From contig NZ_VZDO01000004.1 of the NCBI RefSeq assembly GCF_008802405.1, forward strand, positions 186,001 to 250,000: a stretch of DNA of 64,000 bases, read 5' to 3'. Under the pieces are notes generated by a model that was given only the letters and a program-made list of their open reading frames with translations, was not told where the DNA came from and did not search any database. Source of the DNA: Plantimonas leprariae (GTDB lineage: Bacteria; Pseudomonadota; Alphaproteobacteria; Rhizobiales; Rhizobiaceae). The translations under genes and the position numbers were made by a program. Below, one piece after another: positions 36,280 through 38,985 of the stretch; the first letter of the stretch is position 1; each line of letters opens with the position of its first letter.

Positions 36280-37434
36280 ATGGCCGGGCGCACCGAGCAG
36301 GGCATCGTCGCGGACTGGTGGCGGTCGGTGGACCGCTGGTTCCTCGCCGCGTTCATCTGCCTGATGGTGGGCGGCTTCGTCCTGTCCTTCGCCGCGAGCC
36401 CGCCGGTGGCGGAGAAGATCGGTCTCGAACCGTTCCACTTCGTGAAGCGGCACGCGATGTTCCTCGTGCCGTCGATGCTGGTGATGCTCGGCACCTCGAT
36501 GCTGACGGCGCGCGGCATCCGCCGCATGTCGATCCTGCTGCTCGGCGGGTCGATCCTCCTGATGATCGGCGCGCTGTTCTTCGGCATGGAGGTAAAGGGC
36601 GCGCGGCGCTGGATCGAGTTCGGCCCGCTGACGATTCAGCCATCGGAATTCATGAAGCCGGCCTTCGTGGTCATCTGCGCTTGGCTCTTCGCCGAGCGGG
36701 CGCGCAAGAAGGAGATCCCCGGCAACCTGTTCGCGATGATGCTGCTTATCGTCGTCTGCGCGCTGCTCGTCGCGCAGCCGGACCTCGGTCAGACCATGCT
36801 GACGGCCGGCACCTGGGGCGGCCTGTTCTTCATGGCCGGCCTGCCGTGGATCTGGATCATCCTGCTCGGCGGCGTCGGCGTCACCGGCTTCTGCGCCGCC
36901 TATTTCGTGTTCCCGCATGTGGCGAGCCGCATCGACCGGTTCATGACCGGCGAGGGCGACACGTTCCAGACCGATACGGCGCGCGAAGCGATCATGGGCG
37001 GCAGCTGGCTCGGCAAGGGACCGGGCGAGGGCACCGTGAAGCGCATCCTGCCGGACAGCCACACCGACTTCGCGTTCTCGGTGATCGCCGAGGAGTTCGG
37101 CATCGTCACCTGCATGGCGCTGGCCGCGATCTTCTGCTTCATCGTGGTGCGCGGGCTGCAGGTCGCCTTCGCGCAGCGCGACCACTTCGCGCGTCTCGCG
37201 ATCTCGGGTCTGGTGCTGCTGTTCGGCCTTCAGTCGATCATCAACATGTCGGTGAACCTGCAGCTGATGCCGGCGAAGGGCATGACGCTGCCGTTCATCT
37301 CCTACGGCGGCTCGTCGATGATGGCGATCGCCATCTCCGCCGGCTTCATTCTGGCGCTGACCCGCAAGAAGGCCGAGAACGCCTCGCAGACCGACGAACT
37401 GATGGCGCGCACGATGGCCCTTTACGGGGTTTGA
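36280..37434 (+). CDS. ftsW: Septal peptidoglycan glycosyltransferase FtsW
   Basis: A 384-aa SEDS-family integral membrane protein that polymerises lipid II into septal glycan strands as partner of FtsI. About ten membrane segments are visible. Family motifs include KGARRWIEFGPLTIQPSEFMK, QPDLGQTMLT, the catalytic-loop region and GEGTVKRILPDSHTDFAFSVIAEEFG, then LPFISYGGSSMMA. ATG 36280 gives the usual cytoplasmic leader (MAGRTEQGIVADWWRSVD). Two small ORFs that are not part of the common cluster follow before murG. Confidence 0.97.
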   Translation: MAGRTEQGIVADWWRSVDRWFLAAFICLMVGGFVLSFAASPPVAEKIGLEPFHFVKRHAMFLVPSMLVMLGTSMLTARGIRRMSILLLGGSILLMIGALFFGMEVKGARRWIEFGPLTIQPSEFMKPAFVVICAWLFAERARKKEIPGNLFAMMLLIVVCALLVAQPDLGQTMLTAGTWGGLFFMAGLPWIWIILLGGVGVTGFCAAYFVFPHVASRIDRFMTGEGDTFQTDTAREAIMGGSWLGKGPGEGTVKRILPDSHTDFAFSVIAEEFGIVTCMALAAIFCFIVVRGLQVAFAQRDHFARLAISGLVLLFGLQSIINMSVNLQLMPAKGMTLPFISYGGSSMMAIAISAGFILALTRKKAENASQTDELMARTMALYGV

Positions 37435-37503
37435 GGTGGACGACAGCACTGTCGGCGGGCTTACGGACGGCGGAAGGAGCAGATCAAGCTGACCGCGAGC
37501 TAC

Positions 37504-37686
37504 TTGAACGGGATCGCCGTCGGCCTGACTCTCGTAGGCGGACTTTCGATACCCACGTCGATCGCCTTGAACGGAACGGCGAGCAGCCAGCAGTTGCTCG
37601 CCGCCGGGATCAGCTTGATATCTTTCGCGTTGAGTGCCTATGTGCATCGATATGCAAAACGATCGCTGAGGAGGTTGGACGGATGA
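37504..37686 (+). CDS. Small two-helix membrane protein inside the dcw cluster (first of pair)
   Basis: A 60-65-aa predicted membrane protein with two hydrophobic segments (GIAVGLTLVGGLSIP and QLLAAGISLISFALSAYV) and a basic tail (HRYAKRSLRRLDG). The first conventional start is TTG 37504, but the only good ribosome site, GGAAGGAG at 37472-37479, is spaced for a CTG at 37489, which also overlaps a short upstream frame's TGA. Codons such as ATA, AGT, TCT, CGA and AAA are unusual next to ftsW and murG. It overlaps the next small ORF by 4 bases. Function is unknown. Confidence 0.6.
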   Translation: MNGIAVGLTLVGGLSIPTSIALNGTASSQQLLAAGISLISFALSAYVHRYAKRSLRRLDG

Positions 37687-37814
37687 GCGACATTCTGTAC
37701 TACGCCCTCGCGCTGATCGCGCTGCCGCTGGGATCGATCCTAGTGGTTTGGTATGCGGGCTGGGACCTTGACCGGCAGCTCAAGTCAGGACGTGAAAAGC
37801 GTCTCCATCACTAG
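37683..37814 (+). CDS. 43-aa single-pass membrane protein inside the dcw cluster (second of pair)
   Basis: A 43-aa protein with a short N-terminus, one membrane span (about 5-24: LYYALALIALPLGSILVVWY) and a charged C-terminal tail (DRQLKSGREKRLHH). The ATG at 37683 overlaps the stop of the preceding small ORF (ATGA) and has a strong GAGGAGG ribosome site eight bases upstream, so translation is well supported. The 73 bases from here to murG are AT-richer than the cluster. No family is recognised. Confidence 0.62.
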   Translation: MSDILYYALALIALPLGSILVVWYAGWDLDRQLKSGREKRLHH

Positions 37815-37887
37815 GTAGGCCTAATCCCAAGTCCTAGTTCTTGCCTCCGCGGCACGTTGTGACAATTACGTCCTGAGTCGAAGCGTC

Positions 37888-38985
37888 TTGACGTCTCCTA
37901 TCCTTCTTTCAGCCGGCGGGACGGGCGGCCATCTGTTCCCCGCCGAAGCTCTCGCGCATGAGCTGAAGGCTCGCGGCTACGAGGTGCATCTCGCCACGGA
38001 TGACCGCGCCGGGCGCTATGCAGAGCGCTTTCCCGTCGAAGCGATCCACACCATTCCCTCGGCGACGTTCGGCTCGAAGAGCCCCGTCGCGGTCGCCGGC
38101 TCGCTCTGGAAGCTCTGGACCGGGTTCCGGACGGCCGGTGCGCTGATCCGGCGTATAAGGCCGGCGGTCGTGGTCGGCTTCGGCGGCTACCCGACCGTGC
38201 CGCCGATGATGGCGGCGGTGCAGGCCGGGCGGCCGACGCTGATCCACGAGCAGAACGCCGTGATGGGCCGCGCGAACCGCTTTCTGTCGAAGCGGGTGGA
38301 AGCCATCGCCGCCGGCATCCCGCAGGAGCACGCGGATGGCGGCATCGCCGCGAAGACCACCGTCACCGGCAATCCGGTGCGGCCCGCGGTGCTGAAAGCC
38401 GCTGGCGTGCCCTACCGCGCGAGCGAGGCGGACGAGCCGTTCCGCCTCGTCGTCTTCGGCGGCAGTCAGGGCGCGCAGTTCTTTTCCGAGGTGATGCCGA
38501 AAGCCGTGCCGCTGCTGCCCGAAGCTCTGCGTCGACGGCTGCGGGTGACGCAGCAGGCGCGCGCCGAGCAGCAGGAGGCGGTTCGCGAGTTCTACCGCGC
38601 GCAAGGCATCGACGCCGACGTTTCGCCTTTCTTCGGCGACATGGCGGCGCGGCTCGGTTCTGCGCATCTCGTCGTCAGCCGCTCCGGTGCCTCGACCGTT
38701 TCCGAGGTCGCGGTCATCGGGCGGCCGGCGATCCTCGTGCCGTACCCTTACGCGCTCGACCACGACCAGGCGGCGAACGCCGCGCTCATCGAGAAGGCCG
38801 GCGGTGCCGTCGTCGCGCGGCAATCCGAGCTGTCGCCGGAGCGCTTGGCCGCGATGATCGCGGACCTCGCTGGCGATGCGGCGAAAGCTTCCGCCATGGC
38901 GGCGGCGGCGCGCTCGACGGGCTTGCCCAATGCCTCTCGGTTGCTTGCCGACCTCGTTGCGTCTATGGCCGCGCCAGCAAGATAA
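37888..38985 (+). CDS. murG: Lipid II synthase MurG
   Basis: MurG transfers GlcNAc from UDP-GlcNAc to lipid I on the cytoplasmic face of the inner membrane. The 365-aa GT28 glycosyltransferase has the N-terminal glycine motif [63 protein letters not shown], and the UDP-GlcNAc site [21 protein letters not shown]. It begins with TTG at 37888, right at the conserved start ([11 protein letters not shown]). A 25-base gap separates it from murC. Confidence 0.97.

Follow-up and report, generated by a model that had tools for sequence, protein, structure and literature searches.

The window, a stretch of 64,000 nucleotides from Plantimonas leprariae, contains two small frames between ftsW and murG of the dcw cluster, here called p1 and p2. 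The interval between the ftsW stop and the murG start with both small frames inside it, the ATGA overlap of p1 and p2, and the GAGGAGG site in front of a p2 of 43 amino acids are all as the initial annotation described them (Table 1). Its two-helix p1 stands in part: the helical frame is open, but it has no ATG or GTG start in frame. The frame at the place of ftsW in the relative G219 (L098) matches Pfam FTSW_RODA_SPOVE.

Table 1. Features of the ftsW-murG junction in the window (positions in the 64,000-nucleotide stretch).
Feature	Position	Strand	Basis or remark
ftsW, upstream flank	36280..37434	+	79-88% identity to the same-place frame in four congeners
p1, open frame predicted to encode two membrane helices	37435..37686	+	profile match, E 1e-28
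Short GTG frame, 1 base 3' of the ftsW stop	37436..37492	+	interpreted by comparison with G004
p1 family motif KEQIKL	37474-37491	+	within the p1 frame
AAGGAG	37474..37479	+	encodes K-E of the family motif
GAGGAGG, putative ribosome-binding site of p2, inside p1	37668..37674	+	sequence; 8 bases 5' of the p2 ATG
p2, single-helix gene of 43 amino acids	37683..37814	+	starts on the ATGA overlap, 37683-37686
Spacer between p2 and murG	37815..37887	+	sequence
murG, downstream flank	37888..38985	+	TTG start aligns with the ATG of relatives

The GTG that opens the short frame behind ftsW is not in the reading frame of the p1 helices. Up to the end of the first helix the p1 frame offers one standard start, TTG 37504; initiation there would keep both helices but omit the E-x-x-K-L motif, which is present in 88 of 90 family loci. 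In the congener G004 the tail and the helices of p1 form a single frame of 92 amino acids, and the window p1 is therefore probably frame-shifted near its 5' end. The short GTG frame resembles an earlier N-terminal tail of p1 that no longer shares a reading frame with the helices, and a shift between tail and helices is the most likely reading of the window copy. In the helical part, most differences between the window and G004 are synonymous. The AAGGAG within the motif might, speculatively, act as a ribosome site for CTG 37489. The window copy, with p2 open and the link between the p1 tail and helices lost, is probably in early decay. The one-base shift could also be a sequencing error, as one strain was compared.

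The surroundings of murG were compared across 60 relatives; murG was found in 58 of these, and none was found in the incomplete congener G002. The junction sample comprises 48 genomes (30 loci with the window genome included, 15 more, and 3 further named loci), and ftsW adjoins murG in 45 of them. In 28 of the 45 junctions, 1-51 nucleotides separate the two genes, while G003 and G014 have gaps of 145 and 169 nucleotides without the pair. The pair or its remains occur in 15 junctions. Both frames are open in ten of these (G004, G025, G392, G275, G219, G220, G187, Jiella endophytica, Jiella pelagia, and a Fulvimarina MAG), only p2 is open in four (the window genome, G027, G032, and G150), and both frames are broken in G005; the p2 of G032 and of the Fulvimarina MAG were counted from pair comparison and not from a profile match. 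The p1 start codon, where present, lies 1-12 bases 3' of the ftsW stop, and in G220 the two genes may overlap. Named carriers are Jiella mangrovi, J. avicenniae, J. endophytica, J. pelagia, Jiella sp. LLJ827, Aurantimonas sp. 22II-16-19i, Aurantimonas VKM B-3413 (with a broken p1), Aureimonas sp. Leaf427, Fulvimarina manganoxydans, and the Fulvimarina MAG. Four congeners have a readable junction: the pair is intact in G004 alone, absent from G001 (with a gap of 5 nucleotides) and G003, and broken in G005. Hence ftsW does usually run straight into murG, as had been stated, but not in several species of this genus and its neighbors.

The proposal of a recent insertion does not hold, because the pair occupies the same junction in several genera and the p1 copies of this site cluster in the p1 tree. 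The inserted DNA is not broken in all the relatives that share it either, since both frames are open in 10 of the other 14 carriers. The pair appears to be old at ftsW-murG and to have been lost repeatedly. An insertion unique to the strain is ruled out by same-site copies in four named genera.

Codon use separates the pair from its neighbors, as the initial annotation had noted. The codon score of p1 (-0.26, positions 37474-37686) is lower than that of all 1699 same-length stretches of five neighboring dcw genes, and the score of p2 (0.02) falls in the lowest 0.11% of 1834 such stretches. GC3 is 0.75 in p1 and 0.73 in p2, against 0.84-0.94 in the neighboring dcw genes. The intact p1 of Aureimonas G004 (0.75) and Jiella G025 (0.67) are low as well, so that low GC3 gives no sign of recent arrival.

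Of the 14 junctions with p1 sequence, ten, the window included (37432-37435), have p1 in the reading frame of ftsW immediately after the stop codon and open as far as the helices; in G004, G005, G032, and G220 the frames differ. Read-through of the ftsW stop into an FtsW-p1 fusion is not retained as a likely reading, since four junctions are out of frame and the stop codon is kept (TGA or TAA) in the in-frame junctions read. The in-frame continuation may be explained by shared descent.

Several other features of the junction differ among relatives. ftsW is absent from the upstream stretch examined before murG in G028 (L061), G322 (L158), and G361 (L157), where the junction seems, from the missing ftsW, to have split or taken up further DNA. 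An inverted repeat, CCGCATTTTGCGG, followed by TAAC, lies 55 bases 5' of murG in L172, L176, and L177, and the repeat is found also in L157 and L158, where ftsW is not adjacent. Its carriers are loci of the genus Jiella and the Fulvimarina MAG; it is absent from the window, L173-L175, and L178-L181. The repeat is possibly a murG promoter or regulator site. Between p2 and murG there is a second p2-like frame in two loci, without a start in L174 (G275) and complete with 51 amino acids in L176 (Fulvimarina MAG), the pattern that a tandem duplication of the module followed by loss of one p1 would leave.

The pair extends far beyond this junction. A p1 profile of eight sequences (E<=0.01) has matches in 105 of 394 sampled genomes of the GTDB family, the window genome included, with up to 11 p1 copies per genome. 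At the level of the order a profile of 73 rows (E<=1e-4) finds p1 in 53 of 397 genomes, and at that of the phylum in 10 of 299; for the class, the eight-row profile has matches in 4 of 385 genomes, a count that includes the window genome and one transporter-like false match. The match in G797 (L185) reads as a transporter and was rejected as p1. The 90 loci compared below are the better-scoring part of the family match list and not a random draw.

In 74 of the 90 loci, p1 is followed by a p2, that is, a hydrophobic frame of 30-59 amino acids starting at -4, with ATG in 65 loci and GTG in nine. Three more starts are a TTG at -4, one at -1, and one at -11. The filter leaves 13 loci without p2; two of them, L118 (where the p1 stop is lost) and L146, nevertheless hold a -4 frame. 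In L138 (G337) the end of p1 is shifted and p1 and p2 lie in one frame, which is either decay or a natural fusion. A p1 without p2 is found in 10 of the 90 loci, and eight of these ten share a basal group in the tree that is loosely supported. The overlap was also read in 13 later loci outside profile building, 12 of them from other GTDB families (L211 and L215 were dropped from an original 15 as already in the set). An overlapping p2 is present in 13/13, ten at -4 (one with TTG) and three at -1. As a control for chance, only 7 of 374 window frames of at least 80 codons are followed by such an overlapping frame. The conserved -4/-1 overlap expected of a translationally coupled pair is thus found in both sets. 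Moreover, among the 75 members whose p2 starts at -4, 60 match TAAGGAGGT, the anti-16S consensus, over at least four bases within the 18 bases before p2, and four show no match of three or more bases there.

Both genes carry the mark of purifying selection. The ratio dN/dS was estimated by Nei-Gojobori counts for 21 pairs, several of them near synonymous saturation. It is 0.03-0.32 for p1 in the 20 of 21 pairs giving a value, and 0.05-0.26 for p2 in 15 pairs, with 0.49 for the window against G004 and five pairs without a value. Between the window and G004, p1 (0.22) is as constrained as ftsW (0.22) and murG (0.23), and the p2 value of 0.49 indicates that p2 is less constrained. Nine further junction pairs for p2 give 0.11-0.14 in three pairs beside an intact p1, 0.49-0.57 in three (two that include a genome with a broken p1, and one between tandem copies), while three yield no value. 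Where p1 is broken (G027 and G032), p2 dN/dS is 0.53-0.57 versus 0.11-0.14 beside an intact p1, as expected if p2 needs p1. Translational coupling of these putative small membrane proteins, as first proposed, is supported at the level of sequence by the conserved overlap and the purifying selection. Spurious frames in a neutral spacer are by comparison barely credible. A p1 without ATG or GTG start, as in the window, would suit such an explanation, but not low dN/dS in both genes, in the pairs giving a value, nor an overlap conserved across families.

The p1 proteins mostly have 75-100 amino acids and the p2 proteins mostly 30-60. The p1 alignment retains 73 of 88 rows; near-duplicates were dropped, as were divergent or broken rows, which mostly lack p2. 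One E occurs in every row, and K, L, A, G, H, and L each reach at least 90%. The p2 alignment retains 70 of 74 rows, with near-duplicates left out, and a single P in the helix reaches at least 90%. AlphaFold2 models a Jiella p1 as two helices, residues 30-64 and 69-98 (mean pLDDT 75.9, pTM 0.45), and this p1 is accordingly predicted to be a helical hairpin. From their charges, both ends of p1 and the C-terminal end of p2 would face the cytoplasm.

The genes upstream of the pair are diverse. A same-strand coding frame ends at most 400 bases upstream in 58 of the 90 loci, many of them repeats of the same site, and 65 Pfam families are found among 39 upstream same-strand genes, which rules out upstream genes of one shared function. 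These 39 genes include four ribosomal S4 domains, four RlmN, three carbamoyl-phosphate synthases, one FtsW, and one FtsK. By locus, 8 of the 90 sit 3' of ftsW and 7 behind one gene read as rlmN from sequence and tally. The tree was built from 77 p1 rows with few columns, weak, truncated, and duplicate rows being left out. The p1 copies of the ftsW site cluster in it (8 rows, support 80/70, or 96/92 with L130, a long-branch row from another place that joins this group), and the S4-site copies group together with support 99/97. A second copy in the window genome (G000:C33:285746-285976) groups with the S4 site; it lies behind an apparent ribosomal protein S4 gene, and both of its frames are open, with p2 at -4. 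Tree and synteny favor old, fixed sites over a mobile element, plasmid copies excepted.

These settings bear on the role proposed at first, modulation of the divisome or of lipid II. If the pair acted specifically on FtsW, MurG, or lipid II in these bacteria, that would explain why it is kept between ftsW and murG in several genera, why p1 starts so close behind the ftsW stop in most carriers, and why a divergent copy stands directly behind murB in G014. Most copies, however, adjoin unrelated genes (S4-domain, RlmN, CPSase), and the pair occurs on plasmids. In addition, 30 of the 45 junctions are without the pair, so it is not conserved with the dcw cluster; the congeners G001 and G003 do without it, only G004 is intact among the four readable congeners, and the window copy is damaged. 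As a specific role this has only a slender chance. Many unrelated neighbors and a pair that is dispensable at ftsW-murG make a general membrane-level accessory or regulatory role fit better than control of FtsW or MurG. The copy in G014 (L151) is a profile match 23 bases 3' of the murB-like frame, which was recognized by its likeness to the window murB.

On plasmids, searches found 10 records for one subfamily and 2 for another (two common to both searches), and no plasmid record was found for the ftsW-type p1. Komagataeibacter and Novacetimonas plasmids carry the pair, and some of them are typed as conjugative. In all seven records read (L199-L205) p1 was found by profile. A p2 at -4 is present in L199, L201, L202, L203, and L204; in L200 and L205 p2 was not found and the p1 end runs on. 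A gene over p1 is listed in 1 of the 10 records of the first subfamily (Methylobacterium), the gene table being incomplete. On plasmid pC of Methylobacterium sp. FF17 (L202, 2228-2733), p1 shares 4 bases with the end of a short gene annotated as a transcriptional regulator, and the three genes may be coupled.

A membrane toxin p1 with p2 as its neutralizer, persisting by addiction, is an unlikely explanation, even though several observations agree with it. The copies are many and patchily distributed, some are on plasmids, and a BrnT toxin gene lies close downstream of the pair in two plasmid records read. Furthermore, p1 is broken or gone with p2 open in four junction copies and never the reverse in 15, and some p1 proteins have weak holin-like profile matches. 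On the other hand, the toxin would have to persist without its antitoxin in the 10 of 90 loci with p1 alone, the plasmid copies L200 and L205 have no -4 p2, and p2 stands without a whole p1 in 4 of 15 junctions. With p1-only loci and p2-only junctions, neither protein looks dangerous alone; by the same counts, the partners are not strictly obligate. The copies are also kept at fixed chromosomal sites, PADLOC gave no match in four proteins, and an earlier loss of p1 is expected from its being the longer target.

Searches of Pfam, NCBIfam, PADLOC (on four proteins), and PHROGs gave no convincing match to the pair, and literature searches led to no paper recognized as describing it. SLATT domains usually neighbor nucleotide-sensing (SMODS or SLOG) genes. 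A miniature two-helix pore or effector domain of the SLATT or holin kind, with p2 as its regulator, is suggested by some of the 73 p1 members: NCBIfam SLATT_2 matches 14 and SLATT_1 6, and Pfam DUF4231 matches 6, SLATT_1 4, and holin 3_6 7. Against this, the best E values for SLATT and DUF4231 over the 73 members are 0.0002-0.012, SLATT_2 reaches 16 bits against a cut-off of 40, and the unrelated VIT1 scores alike (8 of 73, best E 0.00026). All these matches are weak and of similar size, so no family is singled out. A fold search of solved structures gave no match at E<=0.001, and a PDB sequence search gave matches only at E>0.5. No SLATT_2 genes were found in 142 genomes, but the 14 controls were equally empty, so this result carries no weight. 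SMODS and SLOG do not appear among the 25 commonest of the 65 upstream and 78 downstream Pfam families. For phage holins the best E is 0.0014-0.005, and a search with one p1 returned no phage record. The SLATT or holin kind is rather improbable.

Taken together, the gene pair is real, old, dispersed, and unnamed, and its first gene is damaged in the window genome. On balance, p1/p2 is probably one copy of a dispersed two-gene module that encodes a co-translated membrane complex with two helices from p1 and one from p2. Ribosomes that finish p1 would restart on p2 at the ATGA overlap by termination-reinitiation, and both chains would thus be made together. The two proteins would then most likely pair at once in the membrane into a small heteromeric complex. 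At the ftsW site, the shared position and the tree suggest that the module arrived earlier than the split of Aureimonas, Jiella, Aurantimonas, and Fulvimarina. It would probably be expressed there from the dcw transcript, and it seems since then to have been kept in some species and to be decaying or lost in others. A wider and more tentative picture, to which we give somewhat less than an even chance, is that the pairs form a family of membrane micro-complexes with two subunits, unnamed and for the most part unannotated. As a cassette, the pair would spread to plasmids and to positions 3' of housekeeping genes and remain under selection wherever it settles, so that a single cell could have as many as eleven diverged versions of one three-helix unit.

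A two-gene family under purifying selection in about a quarter of the sampled genomes of the GTDB family (105/394) is without a convincing Pfam or NCBIfam model. The pair offers a clean system in which to ask why overlapping pairs encode small membrane proteins, and position inside the division cluster does not here imply a division function.

Among known systems, SLATT and DUF4231 effectors share with p1 a two-helix hairpin and weak, sub-threshold profile matches. They usually have sensor genes as partners, whereas p1 has a one-helix partner and the pair stays far under the SLATT_2 cut-off. Holin/antiholin-like pairs likewise consist of small hydrophobic proteins, and there are weak matches to holin models, but p1/p2 loci are mostly chromosomal and many lie behind housekeeping genes. 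KdpF and CydS resemble p2 in size and in the single helix, with one-member matches at E 0.015-0.024; the neighbor of p2, however, is a hairpin and not a transporter or an oxidase. According to the part of PMC10666635 consulted, genes that overlap at -4 are coupled in translation, and such overlaps are enriched where the products are subunits of a heteromeric complex. That part deals with a general mechanism and leaves the p1/p2 family unnamed, yet the termination-reinitiation pairs it describes are like p1/p2 in their ATGA overlap, in a ribosome site inside the first gene, and in adjacent genes for small subunits.
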